Assembly (NCBI GenBank): GCA_003142595.1
Contig: PLMU01000007.1
Location: forward strand, 312,417 to 376,416
Source of the DNA: Phycisphaerales bacterium
Lineage (GTDB): Bacteria > Planctomycetota > Phycisphaerae > Sedimentisphaerales > UBA12454
Length of the DNA stretch: 64,000 bases
Reading direction: 5' to 3'
Made by a program: the position numbers and the translations under genes
The notes under the pieces: model-generated
Told to the model about the DNA's origin: nothing
The model's input: the letters and a program-made list of their open reading frames with translations, nothing else
The model's database searches: none
In this document: piece by piece, positions 4,383-59,764 of the stretch
How the letters are laid out: each line of letters starts with the position of its first letter
How positions within the stretch are numbered: the stretch's first letter is position 1

Positions 4383-5303
4383 TTACTGAAATAGTTCCGT
4401 TGAAATATATCTCTCGCCGGTATCGCAAATAATCGTTACGATAACTTTTCCTTTATTTTCTTTTCGCTTTGCGACCTGCACAGCGGCAAAAACATTCGCC
4501 CCTGAGCTTATGCCGGCAAGTATTCCTTCTTTTACGGCAAGCTTTTTAGCGGTCTCTATCGCGTCTTCATTTTTAACGCAGATAATTTCATCCAGAATCG
4601 CAGTATCAAGAACCTTCGGAACGAAACCTGCTCCAATGCCCTGAATTTTGTGCGAGCCGGGTTTGCCGCCCGAAAGCACAGGCGAATCGGCCGGCTCAAC
4701 TGCTATCACTTTAACCGCCGGCTTATATTTCTTCAGAACCTGTCCGCAGCCGGTAATTGTACCACCTGTTCCGACACCGGCAACAAATATATCTACCTTG
4801 CCCTCCGTATCTTTCCATATTTCCTCGGCCGTTGTTTTGCGGTGTATCTCCGGATTGGCCGGATTTTCAAACTGCTCAAGGATTATCATATTCCCGCCGT
4901 TGCTGACCATCCTGTGAGCATGAGCAACTGCGCCCTTCATTCCTTCGGCCGCAGGCGTTAGGACTAATTCAGCACCGAATATTTTAAACAGTTTTCTTCT
5001 TTCGATGCTCATCGACTCCGGCATAACCAATGTGAGTTTGTAACCCTTTACGGCACAGACGAAAGCAAGACCAATTCCGGTATTTCCGCTGGTCGGCTCA
5101 ACAATGGTTGTATGCTTGTTAAGCTTACCCTGCTTCTCGGCTGCTTCAATCATCGCAATGCCTATTCTGTCCTTGACACTGCCGCACGGATTGAAATATT
5201 CGAGTTTCACTAATACTTCAGCGTCTTCGACATCGAATCTGTTCAGGCGAACCAGTGGCGTCCGTCCAATTGTTTCTACAATGTTATTGTAAATTTTACT
5301 CAT
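4383..5303 (-). CDS. cysK: Cysteine synthase (O-acetylserine sulfhydrylase)
   Basis: PLP enzyme that makes cysteine from O-acetylserine and sulfide. The PLP lysine is in GSVKDRIG, the asparagine loop is [11 protein letters not shown], and the phosphate-binding [10 protein letters not shown] is intact. Two start codons lie six bases apart (5309 and 5303); GGAG at 5311-5314 is 7 nt from the second, so MSKIYNN at 5303 is preferred, giving 306 residues. It is the first structural gene after the Rrf2 regulator and is followed 11 nt later by epsC, so the two can form the cysteine synthase pair. Confidence 0.95.
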
Positions 5304-5339
5304 AAACATTCTCCTGTTACTTGCAGTGCTTTACGAGCA

Positions 5340-5777
5340 TCAAATCTGATAACTCATAGTTTGTTTGCTTTTTTCCGCCATTTCCACAAGGTCGAGCAGC
5401 GTCTTGTTTTCAAGCACACCTAATATCGCTTCATCCATCTCCACCCACAGCTTTCTTGTTACACAATCGGCCGAGTTCGGACAGACACTTGCATCCTCGA
5501 CGCATTCGGTGGTTAGAACCGGTCCTTCGAGTGTCCGGAAAACTTGACTCAGTTTTATTTCTTCCGGCGGTGCCGCCAGAACATAGCCGCCATGCGGCCC
5601 ACGGATGCTCCTGACCAGGCCGGCTGTTTTTAGAATCGCAACAAGCTGCTCGAGATATTTGTTGGATATCTTCTGCCGCTCAGCTATTACCTTTATCTGC
5701 AACGGACCTGTATTATTGGCAATCGCAAGCTCAAGCAAAGCCCGCATACCATATCTTGTTCTTGTTGAAAGTTTCAT
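5340..5777 (-). CDS. Rrf2-family regulator, IscR-like, with three cysteines
   Basis: Winged-helix transcription factor of 145 residues, beginning MKLSTRTRYGMRALLELA, with the recognition segment ISNKYLEQL and the wing RSIRGPHGGY. Three cysteines in the pattern C-x6-C-x5-C (ECVEDASVCPNSADC, about residues 92-106) match the place where IscR holds its [2Fe-2S] cluster, so Fe-S or redox sensing is likely. It heads the cysK-epsC-nadA-metY-nifU-nifS operon and probably controls it and itself. CymR, the cysteine regulator of the same family, lacks such cysteines, which favours an IscR-type signal despite the cysteine genes. GGAG precedes the ATG. Confidence 0.93.
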   Translation of the reverse strand: MKLSTRTRYGMRALLELAIANNTGPLQIKVIAERQKISNKYLEQLVAILKTAGLVRSIRGPHGGYVLAAPPEEIKLSQVFRTLEGPVLTTECVEDASVCPNSADCVTRKLWVEMDEAILGVLENKTLLDLVEMAEKSKQTMSYQI

Positions 5778-5812
5778 GACTTTCTCCTTAATTCCTGGGG
5801 TTTTAGTAGTCT

Positions 5813-5841
5813 ATTCTATTATATATTACGATATATGTCAA
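5813..5841 (-). promoter_or_regulatory. Promoter of the Rrf2-cys-nif operon
   Basis: On the minus strand TTGACA (5841-5836) is followed after 17 nt by TAGAAT (5818-5813), close to the sigma-70 consensus. It lies 36 nt before the Rrf2 start. The AT-rich spacer and flanks (alternating ATATAT) are a likely place for the regulator to bind, but no clear Rrf2 box was identified. Confidence 0.75.
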
Positions 5842-5911
5842 TAAAAGTGCATAAAAAAATAAAAGTATATAAAATTAATCCACAATACTCAAATGCTGTT
5901 TTTTTAACTGC

Positions 5912-5940
5912 TTGACATAATTTTATGTCTGCAATAGAAT
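5912..5940 (+). promoter_or_regulatory. Promoter for the barrel protein/exonuclease III operon, with a palindrome
   Basis: TTGACA (5912-5917), 17 nt, TAGAAT (5935-5940). The same two hexamers and spacing are used on the other strand 70 nt away. A palindrome, GACATAA-N2-TTATGTC (5914-5929), overlaps the -35 box and could be an operator. Confidence 0.72.
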
Positions 5941-5976
5941 TAAATCGCTTTTATAGGACAAAAAGAGGTTCGACCT

Positions 5977-7032
5977 ATGCCAAAAGATTCGCCCGGAAAA
6001 GCAGATAATGGTCTGCCAAAACCATCCATAGAACATCTTAAACGTTTAACAGATGATACAGGCCTTTTTCAGCACGCCAGGTTCATTGTCCCCGACCGCC
6101 TGAACGGCTACACCACCGACGACAACGCCAGAGCCCTTATCGTTATGGCTAAATATTACAAGCAATTTTCCGACCCCCAGGCTTTGAGGCTTTTTGAGAT
6201 TTATTTAGCTTTTCTATGCCATGCTTTAAAACCCGATGGCACAGTTCATAATTTTATGGATTACAACAGGAACTGGAGGACAGGCGATACTGAACACGAT
6301 GCAATCGGCAGAACTCTGTGGGCTTTCGGCTCGGCAATCGCATCGCCGCCATCCCCTGTTTATCTTTCAGTAACCAAACAGCTTTTCGAAGAGGCGGCAA
6401 AACATATACCAATCCTTTCGCCAAGAGGGATGTCTTATGCGATTCTCGGATTGGTTGAATATCTTGGTGCATTCCCGCAGGAAGACGATTTAAAAAGACA
6501 GCTTGCCGATGTATCCGAGAAACTGGCAAATCTTCACCGCCGTTACGCTACTAAAAATTGGGACTGGTTTGAGAATATCCTCTCCTATGATAACGCGATA
6601 TTGCCCGCTGCCCTCTTCGCGGCAGGTATAGCACTGGAAGAAAAAAAATATCTCGATATTGCCGAAAGAGCCTGTAAATTTCTGCTTGCCAATACTTATA
6701 ATGGAAAACATTTCAGTTTTGTCGGCTCGGATAACTGGTATTTGAAAGGCAAAGAACGCTCGAAGTTCGACCAGCAGCCAATTGAAGTTGCCGGAACTGT
6801 TTTAATGTTAAGAAACGCTTACCTGGCAACAAAGAATCAAGAATATCTCAAGCTTGAGCGAAAGGCATTCGATTGGTTCCTCGGCGAAAACGACCTGCAC
6901 CTGCCGATGTATGATTCTCAAACCAAAGGCTGCTGCGACGGCCTGGGCCCGGACAACATTAATACTAACCAGGGAGCAGAAAGCATCGTTAGTTTCCTGT
7001 TGGCTCTGTTGAATATATCTGAACCAGTATGA
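5977..7032 (+). CDS. (alpha/alpha)6-barrel, six-hairpin glycosidase-like protein
   Basis: A 351-residue soluble protein with no signal peptide. Repeated helical hairpins and motifs such as YTTDDNARALI (about residue 46), NFMDYNR, EHDAIGRTLWA and the C-terminal GLGPDNINTNQGAES resemble the helical barrel domain that in some bacteria is fused behind a GT4 glycosyltransferase and sits near GH130 phosphorylases. Here it stands alone, without the GT4 part. A role in oligosaccharide turnover is inferred; the substrate cannot be told. Its stop overlaps the start of the exonuclease III gene by 4 nt (ATGA), so the two are translationally coupled. Confidence 0.6.
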   Translation: MPKDSPGKADNGLPKPSIEHLKRLTDDTGLFQHARFIVPDRLNGYTTDDNARALIVMAKYYKQFSDPQALRLFEIYLAFLCHALKPDGTVHNFMDYNRNWRTGDTEHDAIGRTLWAFGSAIASPPSPVYLSVTKQLFEEAAKHIPILSPRGMSYAILGLVEYLGAFPQEDDLKRQLADVSEKLANLHRRYATKNWDWFENILSYDNAILPAALFAAGIALEEKKYLDIAERACKFLLANTYNGKHFSFVGSDNWYLKGKERSKFDQQPIEVAGTVLMLRNAYLATKNQEYLKLERKAFDWFLGENDLHLPMYDSQTKGCCDGLGPDNINTNQGAESIVSFLLALLNISEPV

Positions 7033-7802
7033 AAGTCGCAACTTTTAACGCTAATTCGATAAGGGCCCGGACAGAGATAATCGTAAACTGGCTGGCGGAA
7101 AACAAACCTGATATTCTCTGCCTCCAGGAGACAAAGGTTCAGGACAAAGACTTTTCCGCCAATGCTTTTGCAAAAACCGGCTATGAATTTGTCTTCAAAG
7201 GCGAAAAAAGCTACAACGGTGTTGCAGTCTTCAGCAAACATAAGATTACTAATGTCGAATTCGGCCTCGACACTCCGCCCCAGGACCAGGCCCGAATGAT
7301 AACCGCCCGCACAGCCGGAATTACAATCGTTAATACCTATATTCCGCAGGGCTTCGAGATGGAATCCGAGAAATATCAATATAAACTCAACTGGCTCAAA
7401 AGACTGCTTGACTATTTTAATAAACATTTCAAGCCGACTGAGAAATTGTTATGGACAGGCGATTTAAACATCGCTTTTGAGGCAAAGGATGTTTACGACC
7501 CTGCCGCTCTTGATGGAACGGTCTGTTTTAATCGCGGACTTTCACAAACTTTAAAAAAGTTTATGGAATGGGGATTTGTTGACCTTTTCAGAAAGCACTG
7601 CGACGAGCCGGGCCAGTTTACTTTCTGGGATTATCGTGAGCCCAACGGCCTTAAAAGAAATCGCGGCTGGCGGCTGGATTATATAATGGGAACAGAACCG
7701 ATAGCGAAAAAATGCACGAATTGTTACATCGATAAGAAACCCCGCGAACTTGAAAAGCCCAGCGACCACACATTTCTTGTCGCTGAATTTAAGAGCCTTT
7801 AG
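7029..7802 (+). CDS. xth: Exodeoxyribonuclease III
   Basis: Mg-dependent AP endonuclease and 3'-5' exonuclease of base-excision repair. The 257 residues carry the family motifs in order: FNANSIRAR, LCLQETK (metal-binding Glu), NTYIPQG, WTGDLNIA, RLDYIMG and the final SDHTFLVAEF with the catalytic Asp-His. Length is normal for the ExoA/XthA group. It starts inside the stop of the preceding barrel gene, so both are on one mRNA. Its 3' end overlaps a small gene on the other strand by 4 nt. Confidence 0.95.
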   Translation: MKVATFNANSIRARTEIIVNWLAENKPDILCLQETKVQDKDFSANAFAKTGYEFVFKGEKSYNGVAVFSKHKITNVEFGLDTPPQDQARMITARTAGITIVNTYIPQGFEMESEKYQYKLNWLKRLLDYFNKHFKPTEKLLWTGDLNIAFEAKDVYDPAALDGTVCFNRGLSQTLKKFMEWGFVDLFRKHCDEPGQFTFWDYREPNGLKRNRGWRLDYIMGTEPIAKKCTNCYIDKKPRELEKPSDHTFLVAEFKSL

Positions 7803-7972
7803 TCTGAATCTTTTTGCTTTCTTCGGTCTTTGCCTTTTCTGCGATCTGAGCCGGGATAGTCATAGGAAAATTTTCTGCGGTCGAAACCGCTGCGTTTTTC
7901 TCCGCTGCCTTTTTGATTATTCTGCCCAGAAGATTCTTTGGATAATTGAACTTTTTTTACATTATCGGACAT
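7799..7972 (-). CDS. Small basic protein with DRR repeats
   Basis: A 57-residue reading frame on the minus strand (ATG 7972, TAA 7799-7801). The C-terminal half repeats an Asp-Arg-Arg motif: GFDRRKF, GSDRRKG, KDRRKQK, with the start MSDNVKKVQLS. GGAG lies 7 nt before the ATG, a good ribosome-binding site. The regular F/S/K-DRR-K spacing argues against chance. Function unknown; the strongly basic tail suggests nucleic acid binding. It overlaps the last codons of the exonuclease III gene on the opposite strand. Confidence 0.65.
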   Translation of the reverse strand: MSDNVKKVQLSKESSGQNNQKGSGEKRSGFDRRKFSYDYPGSDRRKGKDRRKQKDSD

Positions 7973-8053
7973 AAAAATCTCCGTTAATTATGTAAAATTT
8001 CGCAAAAAGTCACAAAAATCAATAGAAAGCGCAAAAAATACATATTTATTTCG

Positions 8054-8836
8054 TCAAAATTTAAAATTTCTATGAGTTTTTATTCTTTTTTTCCTAAAAT
8101 TTCTGCCCGCAGGCATTTCAGCCCGATTTTCCTTTTTCAAATATTCAATCTCACTGGCCGTCAGAGGCCTGTAATCGCCAATAGCAAGATGATGCAGAGA
8201 AATATTGCCAATGTGCGTTCTCTTAATCGCCATTACTTTGTAATCTAACCTTGCCATAATTCTCTGAATCTGCCTGTTAAGACTCTGGCGAATTTTAACC
8301 TCAATCACCGACTCCTTCTCAGATGATTTTAAAACCTTTAACTTCGCAGGCGCAGTTCTGCCTTCCGAAAACCACATACCTTTTTTAAACTTCTCAATAA
8401 TTTCCGCTGTTATCCTGCCCCTGATTTCCACTAAATAAGTCTTTTCAAGACAATAGCGCGGATGCGTTAAACGGTCAGCAAGGGCCGAATCGTTAGTTAA
8501 TACTATCGCGCCGGTAGTATCGGCATCGAGCCGGCCGGCACAAAAAATCCGCTGGTCGGTATCAATAAAATCAATCGCTTTTCTCCTGCCTTGCGGGTCA
8601 TCGTTTGTGCAGATAACGCCTTTGGGCTTATTGAAAAGATAATAAACCTTTTTGACTGAATGTATCTTTCTGCCTTCAACAATAATAACGTCTTTATCAA
8701 TATCCGCAAAGGCCGGCAGTGTATCCATAATTTTCCCATTGACTCTTACCAGTCCCTGAAGGATAAGCTGCTCGCAATTTCTACGCGAATCGACACCCGC
8801 CGCGGCAAGTATTTTGTGTAATCGTTCTGTAGCCAT
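8054..8836 (-). CDS. rRNA pseudouridine synthase, RsuA/RluB family
   Basis: Isomerises uridine in rRNA. An S4 RNA-binding domain fills residues 1-60 (LHKILAAAGVDSRRNCEQLI) and is followed by the synthase domain with the catalytic aspartate in GRLDADTTGAIVLTND near residue 103, and KTYLVEIRG and RQIQRIM later. The order matches RluB/RluE/RsuA; the site modified (likely 23S rRNA 2605 if RluB) cannot be proven from sequence. The C-terminus is Arg/Lys rich. Single gene with no clear operon partners. Confidence 0.9.
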   Translation of the reverse strand: MATERLHKILAAAGVDSRRNCEQLILQGLVRVNGKIMDTLPAFADIDKDVIIVEGRKIHSVKKVYYLFNKPKGVICTNDDPQGRRKAIDFIDTDQRIFCAGRLDADTTGAIVLTNDSALADRLTHPRYCLEKTYLVEIRGRITAEIIEKFKKGMWFSEGRTAPAKLKVLKSSEKESVIEVKIRQSLNRQIQRIMARLDYKVMAIKRTHIGNISLHHLAIGDYRPLTASEIEYLKKENRAEMPAGRNFRKKRIKTHRNFKF

Positions 8837-55156: not shown

Positions 55157-55191
55157 AAAATTAAAAAAACGAACCCTGTTTTTTTAATTTT
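55157..55191. terminator. Two-way terminator between the DUF4041 and MFS genes
   Basis: A perfect 14-bp stem, AAAATTAAAAAAAC (55157-55170) with GTTTTTTTAATTTT (55178-55191), loop GAACCCT. It has T-runs in both directions and overlaps the last codons of the MFS gene. Confidence 0.7.
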
Positions 55192-56362
55192 TAGCAAAGT
55201 GTTTTTGCGAGCTGACAAACAGGGGTAGTGAGGCGGCCTGGGAAACAACTGAAAAAACGATAAGAGCCGGAATAGAAAAATCATAAAGAACGCCCATCAG
55301 AGCACTTCCCAAAAACCAGCAAATACCGTAGCCTGCGTTAAAGATGCCGTAGCCTGTGCCGCGTTTGACTGTTGGGACAAAATCGGCTACCGCGGCCCTT
55401 ATAATAGATTCCTGTGCGCCCATGCCGACAGACCAGAGCATAATCCCGACGATAATCCATATCGGCGAAAGCGAAAAAGCGAAAATCGCAAAGAGAGACG
55501 AAATCACCACCGCTGTCGCCAGCGAAAGCAGTTTCTTTTTGTCATATAATTTGCCAAAGAAAAGAGCCGCCAGGCCGTCAACACCCATAGCGATTGCGTA
55601 AAGAAGCGGAATCCATTTGTCGGCGAAAATATTGTGCTGTTTTATATGAAACGCAATCAGCGGATAATCGGCAAAACCGGCGGCGACAAGGCCAACGGCA
55701 GCGAGATAAAGCCAGAACGCTTTGGGAAGTTTGACATCCTGTTTGTTATCCTCTGGAGCCTTTTCGAGTTTTTGCGGATGCGGATAAATATTTCGAGCAA
55801 TCAAAAGCACTGTAATCGCCAAACAAGCCGGTATGGCCAAAACCGCAAAGGCATAACGATACGAGCCGTTAATCGCCAGGACAATCATAACAATCAGTGG
55901 GCCGGTCATTGCGCCGATTTGGTCCATCGCCTCGTGAATCCCAAATCCCCATCCCCTGCCGACTGTCGCAGTCGCGTGCGAAAGCATCACATCGCGGGCA
56001 GGTGTTCGAATCGATTTGCCGATTCTCTCGGTTATCATCAGTGCGACCGCCAGCGGCCAATGATGCGTCAGCGCCAGCAGCGGAACCGCCAGAAGATTTA
56101 CCACATATCCGACAATGGTAATAAGCCAGTATCGCCGTGTTTTATCGCTCAATAGGCCCGAAAAATACCTCAGCCCGTATCCCAGCAATTCGCCCAGCCC
56201 TGCCGTTATTCCTACAACTGCCCCTGTTGCGCCGAGGGTGGAAAGATAAGGCCCGGCCAGACTTCTCGCCGATTCATAAGTCATATCCGCAAGAAGGCTG
56301 ACAACCCCAAGCAGCAAAATAAATCTCATTGCCGATTTTCGATTATTATCTATCTGAGCCAT
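55184..56362 (-). CDS. MFS transporter
   Basis: About 392 residues with 11-12 predicted membrane helices and no large loops apart from the central one (about 185-210). The motif between helices 2 and 3, GLLSDKTRRY, is the MFS loop. DMTYESARSLAGPYL near the N-terminus is also seen in a subgroup of bacterial MFS proteins without known substrate. The gap to the antiporter gene upstream is only 50 nt with no clear promoter, so it is probably under the same fluoride riboswitch. An ATG at 56398 is possible. Confidence 0.83.
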   Translation of the reverse strand: MAQIDNNRKSAMRFILLLGVVSLLADMTYESARSLAGPYLSTLGATGAVVGITAGLGELLGYGLRYFSGLLSDKTRRYWLITIVGYVVNLLAVPLLALTHHWPLAVALMITERIGKSIRTPARDVMLSHATATVGRGWGFGIHEAMDQIGAMTGPLIVMIVLAINGSYRYAFAVLAIPACLAITVLLIARNIYPHPQKLEKAPEDNKQDVKLPKAFWLYLAAVGLVAAGFADYPLIAFHIKQHNIFADKWIPLLYAIAMGVDGLAALFFGKLYDKKKLLSLATAVVISSLFAIFAFSLSPIWIIVGIMLWSVGMGAQESIIRAAVADFVPTVKRGTGYGIFNAGYGICWFLGSALMGVLYDFSIPALIVFSVVSQAASLPLFVSSQKHFAKN

Positions 56363-56412: not shown

Positions 56413-57570
56413 TTAACTGCCGTTTTCCAACTCGACAAGGTCTTCTTCTTCGACAGGCATAAACCATTTTTGCGCAATGAATGTGGGTATAACGGCGCTG
56501 GCTATGACTACTCCTACAAGGATTGAATACTGCGTCTGATTAATGATGCCGGCCGTCAAGCCGAATACGCTCGAAATCGTTCCAAATGTAAGACCGGTAC
56601 TCATAAGAAGCGTTGTGTAGATACTGCCGCGCGGAATGTATTTTTTCGCGAGGAAATAAACGCCGATAAATTTTGCTGCAATCTTGAGAATAAAAAGAAT
56701 CAAAAACAGGCCGAATGCCGCAATAATCATCGGGACCGAAACTTTCAATCCGCCGACAATGAAAAATATCGGCGTAATAAACGCATAGGCAACGGTTCGC
56801 AGACGGTTCCTGACAACTTTTGTTTCGCTTGTCTCCTTGAAATGGCCTGACATCAGCAAACCCAAGAAAAACGCCGGCAAAACAGCGTGGCCGTCGCCAA
56901 GTTTGGCGAAATACATAAACAGCAATAGCAGTACGAAAATATATTTTATCTCAGGCTCGATGACTTTGTTTTTTAAGGTGCGGCTGTGAAAAACAAGATG
57001 AGAAAATTTTGTCGCAAATATTATGACGATAACGGAGACGACAAGAAAAACGGCGGTGTAGATAGTAGGTTTGGCGAAAAGAATACTCAAGGCAATAGCG
57101 GTACCCATATCTGTAATGAAAGTGGCGGCCATAAGAAGTTTGCCGATTTCAGTTTTCGACAGGCCTGTTTCCACCAGCACTGAATAAACAACCGCAAGTG
57201 AAGTTGTCGAAAGAGCAGTGCCTGCGATAAGCGATGCCTGCAATGTCCAATGCGCTACATAAAAAGTATAAAGAAAAACTATTGCGAAAGGAAACAGAAA
57301 TGAGCAAGTGCCGATAAGGAAGCTTTCCTTGAATTTTTCCTTCATAAGATGAGTGTCGATTTCGGATCCCGCCAGAAAAGTAAGAACTATGCCGCCGAAA
57401 CCTGCAATGTATAACATCCAATCTTCTGCCTTGAGGCCGAAATAAGCGGCAGCCGCGCCGATAAGAATTTCTATGATGGCGACAGAAAGCCCTGCCTTTA
57501 GGGAGATAATACTCGATAGAAATACCAATAAGCCGACGATTAATGGAACGGCATCAACTTTAATATCCAT
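56413..57570 (-). CDS. CPA2-type cation:proton antiporter under a fluoride riboswitch
   Basis: 385 residues with about 12 membrane helices, of the KefB/NhaS3-like CPA2 family. Visible segments are LAGSEIDTHLMKEKF, ALSTTSLAVVYSVL and FITDMGTAIALSIL, the last holding the aspartate (ITDMGT) at the usual ion site. There is no C-terminal TrkA domain. The leader contains a fluoride aptamer and terminator, so export of ions or protons during fluoride stress is likely; a direct fluoride carrier is not shown. AAGGA precedes the ATG. Confidence 0.88.
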   Translation of the reverse strand: MDIKVDAVPLIVGLLVFLSSIISLKAGLSVAIIEILIGAAAAYFGLKAEDWMLYIAGFGGIVLTFLAGSEIDTHLMKEKFKESFLIGTCSFLFPFAIVFLYTFYVAHWTLQASLIAGTALSTTSLAVVYSVLVETGLSKTEIGKLLMAATFITDMGTAIALSILFAKPTIYTAVFLVVSVIVIIFATKFSHLVFHSRTLKNKVIEPEIKYIFVLLLLFMYFAKLGDGHAVLPAFFLGLLMSGHFKETSETKVVRNRLRTVAYAFITPIFFIVGGLKVSVPMIIAAFGLFLILFILKIAAKFIGVYFLAKKYIPRGSIYTTLLMSTGLTFGTISSVFGLTAGIINQTQYSILVGVVIASAVIPTFIAQKWFMPVEEEDLVELENGS

Positions 57571-57593: not shown

Positions 57594-57618
57594 ACCCCTA
57601 TCACTTTTATGATAGAGG
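57594..57618 (-). terminator. Second hairpin of the antiporter leader
   Basis: Minus-strand stem CCTCTATCA with TGATAGGGG (one G-T pair), loop TAAAAG, followed by TTTTTATTTT, ending just before the Shine-Dalgarno. It directly follows the riboswitch terminator, so the leader holds two terminator-like stems in a row. Confidence 0.6.
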
Positions 57619-57621
57619 CAT

Positions 57622-57652
57622 AAAAAAACCTCTACCTTTGCCGGTAGAGGTT
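57622..57652 (-). terminator. Riboswitch terminator (expression platform)
   Basis: Minus-strand perfect 10-bp stem AACCTCTACC (57652-57643) with GGTAGAGGTT (57636-57627), loop GGCAAA, then TTTTT. Its 5' arm is the 3' end of the fluoride aptamer, so aptamer folding and terminator folding exclude each other. Confidence 0.92.
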
Positions 57653-57697
57653 ATCATCCTTTTTATAGGCGGTTTATTAGGCGAACCTCATCGCCCT
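57641..57697 (-). promoter_or_regulatory. Fluoride riboswitch (crcB motif)
   Basis: The minus strand reads AGGGCGATGAGGTTCGCC, then TAATAAACCGCC, a short A-rich hairpin, and GATGATAACCTCTACC. These match the crcB aptamer core in order and spacing; the known Thermotoga petrophila aptamer has GGGCGAUGAGG, CGCC, AAACUGCC, CUGAUG and CCUCUAC at the same places. GAGG near the 5' end can pair with CCTC near the 3' end as in the known pseudoknot. The CCTCTACC end also forms the 5' arm of the following terminator, so fluoride binding should allow read-through into the antiporter and MFS genes. Confidence 0.93.
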
Positions 57698-57835
57698 ACA
57701 ATCTTCAATTCTAAAGATAAGATATAACGAAATAGTCGTATTTTCAATCTAAAAATAATAAAATTTACATATCAAGCGGCAGTATTATTCATATATGGGC
57801 CGCCAAAGGCAATGGTACCCAGCTTAAGGAACAAC

Positions 57836-58720: not shown

Positions 58721-59764
58721 TCATATAAAGTATTTCTTCTTTATCCAAAGGCTCACATTCACAAGACTAATTAACGCCGGCACTTCAACCAGCGGCCCGA
58801 TAACGGCAGCGAATGCCTGACCGGAGTTAATGCCGAAAACCGCAACCGCTACCGCGATAGCCAATTCGAAATTATTGCTGGCCGCGGTGAAAGACAGCGT
58901 AGCCGATTTGGCATAATTTGCGCCGGCTTTTGCGCTGATATAAAACGTAATAAAAAACATCACTACAAAATAAATCAGCAGCGGAACCGCTATCCGCAGC
59001 ACATCCATCGGCAGCGAAACTATAAATTCGCCTTTAAGGCTGAACATCACAATGATTGTAAAAAGAAGAGCGATCAATGTAATGGGGCTGATTTTAGGGA
59101 TGAATTTATTTTGATACCAGTCTTTGCCTTTAAGATTAATAAGACTAAATCGCGTTATTACTCCTGCGATAAACGGGACGCCGAGATAGACAAAAACGCT
59201 TTTGGCGATTTGAACGATGCTGACATTTACGACAGTCCCCTTCAGGCCGACCATCGGCGGCAGAACCGTAATGAAAACATACGCGTAAACCGAAAAGAAA
59301 AGAACCTGAAAAATAGAATTAAACGCGACAAGTCCCGCGGCATATTCGCTGTCGCCGCCCGCAAGTTCATTCCATACGATAACCATCGCGATGCACCGGG
59401 CAAGGCCGATTAGAATAAGACCAATCATATATTCCGGATAGCCTCGCAGAAATATAATCGCCAGCAAAAACATCAGAACCGGCCCGATGAGCCAGTTCTG
59501 TATCAGAGACAGGCCCAGAATTTTATAATTTTTAAATACTTCGCCAAGCTCTTCATACTTCACCTTGGCCAACGGCGGATACATCATCAGAATTAAACCT
59601 ATCGCGATTGGAATATTCGTTGTGTCATATTGAAATGCGTTCCAGAATTTTACTATCGGCGGATAAAGATACCCTGCCCCGACGCCGATGAACATCGCCA
59701 AAAAAATCCACAGCGTCAGAAATCTGTCGAGAAACGATAAACGTTTTGTTATGCCTGTCGTCAT
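58721..59764 (-). CDS. Arsenite efflux transporter Acr3
   Basis: 347 residues with ten membrane helices of the ACR3 family. The conserved cysteine is in [21 protein letters not shown]-like segment (here [20 protein letters not shown]), with [17 protein letters not shown] before and [20 protein letters not shown] late in the protein. Acr3 exports arsenite using the proton gradient. No arsR or arsC is next to it in the window. Confidence 0.92.

Follow-up and report, generated by a model that had tools for sequence, protein, structure and literature searches.

Two serial terminators and a possible strand relay at a fluoride riboswitch ahead of CPA2 antiporter and MFS transporter genes

Fluoride (crcB) riboswitches of the RF01734 class have been described with an intrinsic terminator that overlaps the aptamer (PMC2864571, PMC13273304, PMC11077080), and the terminators reported for them are single (PMC2864571, PMC13273304). 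Antiporters are among their known targets, as shown for riboswitch-linked Na+/H+ antiporters (PMC11139923) and, in C. difficile, for a CLC protein together with an NhaP-type antiporter (PMC11477304). The locus analysed here has in common with the published RF01734 riboswitches (PMC2864571, PMC13273304, PMC11077080) the aptamer, the position of a pseudoknot strand within the 5' arm of the terminator (T1) and the on-switch logic, but differs from them by a second terminator (T2), with a 5' arm that the 3' arm of T1 can capture. Tandem terminators with a possible antiterminator also exist in the rimP leader (PMC2965389), which has no fluoride aptamer and is unrelated in sequence. No two-terminator fluoride riboswitch is described in the freely accessible papers searched, and both the double-stop design and the presence of a second transporter gene look new. 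We read the locus as a fluoride-induced transcriptional riboswitch that would govern a fluoride-tolerance operon of two genes (CPA2 and MFS), with a relay between T1 and T2, and we assign to this sequence-based reading a probability of roughly one half.

Coordinates are those of the window, i.e. the whole stretch of 64 000 nucleotides that was analysed, and the operon lies on its minus strand; the genome under study is labelled G000. Positions 57704-57638 (-) match RF01734 over its full length, all 64 model positions included (cmscan, 44.6 bits, E 4.2e-9, gathering score 34), and this is the only copy detected in the 2.28 Mb of G000. The original prediction, which had claimed a fluoride aptamer and asked for a search with RF01734, is thereby borne out; its span (57594-57697) covers most of the aptamer as well as T1 and T2, and omits 7 nt at the 5' end of the former. 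The pseudoknot between the P1 loop and the 3' strand that characterizes RF01734 is present in a variant form, GAGGU (57689-57685) with ACCTC (57651-57647), whereas most other loci display GGAGU/ACTCC, so that the two strands co-vary in a compensatory manner. Upstream, a consensus scan retrieved a sigma-70-like promoter candidate, TTGAAA-17-TATCTT (57719-57747, -; 9/12 matches), which is weak and has others nearby.

T1 (57627-57652, -), identified by the terminator scan and the leader fold, consists of a 10-bp stem, AACCTCTACC-GGCAAA-GGTAGAGGTT, followed by a T tract. Its 5' arm (segment 1, 57652-57643) is shared with the aptamer and includes the pseudoknot strand ACCTC, and hence the aptamer and T1 are mutually exclusive; its 3' arm constitutes segment 2 (57636-57627). 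The 3' pseudoknot strand overlapping an intrinsic terminator is the arrangement of the transcriptional type of RF01734, and corresponds to the on-switch layout initially proposed. The second terminator proposed at the same time was also recovered: T2 (57594-57619, -; terminator scan) directly follows T1 and is composed of 11 pairs, GCCTCTATCAT-AAAA-GTGATAGGGGT, and a T tract, its two arms being segments 3 (57619-57609) and 4 (57604-57594). A pattern scan detected two terminators in the leader versus 0.3 expected in shuffled sequences, and the fold of the 120-nt leader (-44.7 kcal/mol, z -5.8) was equalled by none of 200 shuffles. A chance origin of the RF01734 match or of T2 is ruled out by the cmscan score, the terminator scan and these leader-fold shuffles. 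The complementarity linking T1 to T2 was absent from the original prediction: the 3' arm of T1 (57636-57628) can pair with the 5' arm of T2 (57619-57611) to give a proposed anti-T2 hairpin (57611-57636, -), deduced from pairing, of 9 pairs and -13.7 kcal/mol.

A relay can be proposed from these pairings. When fluoride is absent, the 5' arm of T1 would pair with its 3' arm and RNA polymerase would halt at T1, any polymerase leaking past T1 being halted at T2. When fluoride is present, the pseudoknot would keep ACCUC and T1 would be unable to form; the freed 3' arm of T1 could then capture the emerging 5' arm of T2, and T2 would be blocked too. The four successive segments would thus pair as 1:2 (T1), 2:3 (anti-T2) or 3:4 (T2), with fluoride gating segment 1. 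Attenuators of the trp type rely on the alternative pairings 1:2, 2:3 and 3:4. Both systems comprise four consecutive segments of which neighbours are mutually exclusive; here, however, 1:2 is itself a terminator, and it is an aptamer rather than a ribosome that would gate segment 1. The pairing potential for 2:3 that such a trp-type logic would require is present in G000 and in the T1+T2 loci described below. If real, such a relay would allow two serial terminators to be controlled by one small aptamer and leakage to be reduced in this way, which would be of use in sensor design.

When the G000 leader was folded stepwise without fluoride, T1 formed first and then T2, while holding the aptamer gave the anti-T2 hairpin (2:3) at nt 90-108, ahead of the complete 3' arm of T2. 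At full length, T2 is preferred by about 4 kcal/mol even with the aptamer held; the relay must therefore be kinetic, and its operation would depend on kinetic control. The same preference is what would be expected if T1 alone were the fluoride switch and T2 an independent, constitutive backup that cuts either leakage or maximum output, the T1-T2 complementarity being a by-product of terminator duplication. This alternative, to which the frequency of single-T1 fluoride switches in the order of G000 also lends weight, is a serious one that we nonetheless find rather doubtful: a constitutive terminator placed downstream of an on-switch would waste output, and the comparison of loci gives further arguments on both sides.

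This comparison was based on 119 fluoride riboswitches of the planctomycete phylum, with T1 and T2 called under strict energy limits. T1 followed by T2 was found in 36 of them, 33 from family f50 and three from the order of G000 (G000, G451 and G433), and an Omnitrophota locus (L189) represents a 37th case. As hydrazine synthase is encoded by 14 of the 23 riboswitch-bearing f50 genomes searched, these 14 can be considered anammox bacteria, and the T1+T2 loci (37 among those examined) originate mostly from such bacteria. Across the 36 planctomycete loci, the hairpin joining the T1 3' arm to the T2 5' arm reaches -12.5 to -20.5 kcal/mol, versus far weaker energies on average (means about -3.5 to -7) when these T1 3' arms are combined with arms taken from 142 unrelated terminators of the same loci; for G000, a single one of the 142 control terminators pairs as well as the T2 5' arm.

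If T2 were a mere copy of T1, the 2:3 and 1:4 pairings should decay alike. Contrary to this expectation of plain duplication, 2:3 is the stronger pairing in 32 of the 37 loci, with a mean of -15.0 versus -9.4 kcal/mol for 1:4 (Wilcoxon p 8e-7, a value that is too strong because the 33 f50 loci are mutually related and thus non-independent). The five loci in which 1:4 exceeds 2:3, and which are consistent with a passive backup, correspond to four related f50 loci (G088, G195, G239 and G275), all with T1 3' arms of the TTTGG/TCTGG type, and to one G399 locus. At L189, the T2 5' arm is fully complementary to the T1 3' arm, yet is mismatched with its own T2 3' arm, which again argues against the backup. 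On balance, we give the relay a modest preference over a passive backup terminator. The double terminator was also evaluated as a typical trait of CPA2 riboswitches, and this idea was rejected, as T2 was found in only 2 of the 59 checked; one of the two, L238, was unconvincing as a further independent relay, since 18 of the 142 control terminators pair equally well.

T2 ends approximately 24 nt upstream of the CPA2 ATG, near AAAGGA, a location that could suggest that this stable hairpin, just upstream of the Shine-Dalgarno sequence, acts on translation or mRNA stability instead of termination. This seems very improbable: the Shine-Dalgarno sequence lies outside the T2 stem, T2 possesses a T tract and was scored by the scan as an intrinsic terminator, and T tracts 3' of T2 are retained in nearly all of the 37 loci.

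The first gene of the operon (56413-57570, -) starts with ATG and encodes a CPA2 monovalent cation:proton antiporter of 385 aa, in which PF00999 matches residues 14-364, i.e. the whole transmembrane part (E 2.5e-37, 129.1 bits). Its best NCBIfam match is the CPA2 model TIGR00932, with 96.7 bits for a cut-off of 238.3, and this divergent protein was consequently filed as CPA2-like (PF00999, NapA-like), outside TIGR00932. NapA is the nearest PDB entry both by sequence (E 1e-20) and by fold (TM 0.67-0.76, for a predicted model with a pLDDT of 77), so the protein can be described as NapA-like by sequence and predicted fold. The ion-site helix of NapA contains an Asp-Asp pair. The protein of the window resembles NapA (4bwz, 5bz2) in fold and sequence profile, but displays Thr-Asp (T153-D154) in this helix; D154 of the TM5-like ion-site motif is invariant in nine relatives and is preceded by T or N.

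The antiporter had been presented in the original prediction as an unusual target, a view that does not hold, since antiporter targets are already published. Relative to those known cases (PMC11139923, PMC11477304), which likewise place an antiporter under a fluoride riboswitch, the window differs by the CPA2 (NapA-like) subfamily, mostly found without CrcB, and by the adjacent MFS gene. This subfamily stands behind a fluoride riboswitch in 14 of the 15 planctomycete genomes that have it, the 15th copy being cut at a contig start. Among the best 80 relatives drawn from named bacterial and archaeal genomes, 58 have RF01734 at gathering score upstream on the same strand. On these genomic associations, the subfamily appears almost dedicated to fluoride. 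The riboswitch can be more distant, as in L259 (about 2.2 kb upstream of CPA2) or in G248, where the CPA2 part belongs to a longer open frame located approximately 1.7 kb downstream of the nearest riboswitch. An acquisition of CPA2 from anammox bacteria, considered because of the 76% identity to G248, is weakened by higher identities within the order of G000 (G466, 80%; G451, 79%) and at the Omnitrophota locus L189 (84%).

Two further loci deserve mention here. The G248 frame (L045, about 5000-8700, -) spans 665 aa, in which 280 N-terminal residues of other origin precede the CPA2 domain, and the two genes that follow it resemble, by eye, formate/nitrite transporters. In G468, the three fluoride aptamers of locus L107 lie in a 2.6-kb stretch, and two are followed by short pieces similar to the CPA2 C-terminus (WFMPVEEEDIV and WFMSVEEEDIV) that look like remnants of lost CPA2 copies.

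CrcB is encoded by 236 of the 392 genomes of the phylum (60%), but by only one of the 14 riboswitch-CPA2 genomes, which come from 14 families, versus 235 of the 378 others (Fisher p 4e-5, shared ancestry being ignored). Ten of these 14 have neither CrcB nor an above-cut-off CLC, the absences being based on draft genomes. Neither CrcB/Fluc (PF02537) nor CLC (PF00654) gave a match in the draft genome of G000, and its genus siblings, G420 and G412, carry a riboswitch-crcB arrangement. Given this rarity of CrcB in riboswitch-CPA2 genomes and the situation in G000 and its siblings, CPA2 seems to replace CrcB behind the riboswitch, and would either export fluoride or rebuild ion and pH gradients perturbed by fluoride. 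Thus, the ion or proton handling initially suggested as the fluoride response is retained as one option but not as the sole one: as CPA2 occupies the place of the siblings' crcB in a genome without CrcB and CLC, it may replace the exporter itself.

Independently of the RNA mechanism, CPA2 might only restore pH and cation balance, as proposed for antiporters in general, with fluoride leaving through some other, so far unrecognised pathway, for which the MFS protein is a candidate. The chances of this scenario appear to us evenly balanced: the NapA-like fold and sequence, as well as the published view of antiporters under fluoride stress (PMC11139923), are in its favour, whereas the location of CPA2 at the place of crcB behind the riboswitch and its near exclusivity with CrcB speak against it. 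At the other extreme, riboswitch-linked CPA2 proteins could form a third class of fluoride exporters, independent of CrcB/Fluc and CLC-F and replacing them in many bacteria and archaea, with a two-terminator strand relay here through which one fluoride aptamer would open both terminators; we judge this combined proposal unlikely. In any case, the tie of this CPA2 subfamily to the riboswitch and its exclusion from most CrcB genomes make the role of riboswitch-linked antiporters directly testable. As a separate observation, none of the 23 riboswitch-bearing f50 genomes has CrcB, and many of them harbour several fluoride riboswitches.

The second gene (55184-56362, -) encodes an MFS transporter (PF07690 MFS_1, E 6.1e-33), with a probable ATG at 56362 in a frame open from TTG 56398, leaving 50 nt from the CPA2 stop (56413). 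Orthologs of this protein occur in riboswitch-crcB-DUF190-MFS operons within the order of G000, the closest found being that of G420 (about 85% identity), followed by those of G450 (72%), G428 (72%) and G261 (58%), in which the gene order is identical or a close variant; in G000, CPA2 occupies the crcB-DUF190 place ahead of MFS. Outside the phylum, 44-60% identical orthologs have a member of this CPA2 subfamily nearby; they come from Bacteroidetes (L255), Zixibacteria (L195, with enolase), Desulfomonile (L259, together with Usp and a dynamin-like GTPase), another deltaproteobacterium (L258), Desulfovirgula (L268) and the Chloroflexi-type L249 and L220. This double association, with riboswitch-crcB-DUF190 on one side and riboswitch-CPA2 on the other, supports the earlier suggestion of an MFS member in the fluoride regulon, in which this protein may be an accessory. 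A PDB sequence search with the MFS protein gave no match, and NorA and OxlT are the structures most similar to its predicted model (pLDDT 90), neither being a decisive match or pointing to a clear substrate. A fluoride riboswitch with this MFS was not found in the freely accessible papers searched.

Dynamin-like GTPases of approximately 600 aa were observed directly 3' of fluoride riboswitches, in anammox bacteria as well as in others, namely in L045 (G248, behind 2901692-2901754), L259:950-2818, L268:4825-6600 and the G374 and G433 loci (L042, L110); PF00350 was confirmed in those of G248 and L259. No paper combining a fluoride riboswitch with dynamin was retrieved from the freely accessible literature searched, and the MFS and dynamin-like genes would both be additions to the list of fluoride-response genes.

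Fluoride is listed among the riboswitch classes never found in tandem in a 2022 survey (PMC9481103, Table 3). Tandem fluoride aptamers, 62 nt apart, are visible at L045:9463-9649 (-), i.e. G248:C1:2899462-2899648, with 50.5 and 33.9 bits, the weaker being marginally below the gathering score, and three other f50 genomes (G392, G398 and G399) display two aptamers separated by a few hundred nt. Lastly, an ACR3 arsenite efflux gene (58721-59764, -; TIGR00832, 458 bits) lies upstream of the riboswitch operon in the window, on the same strand.
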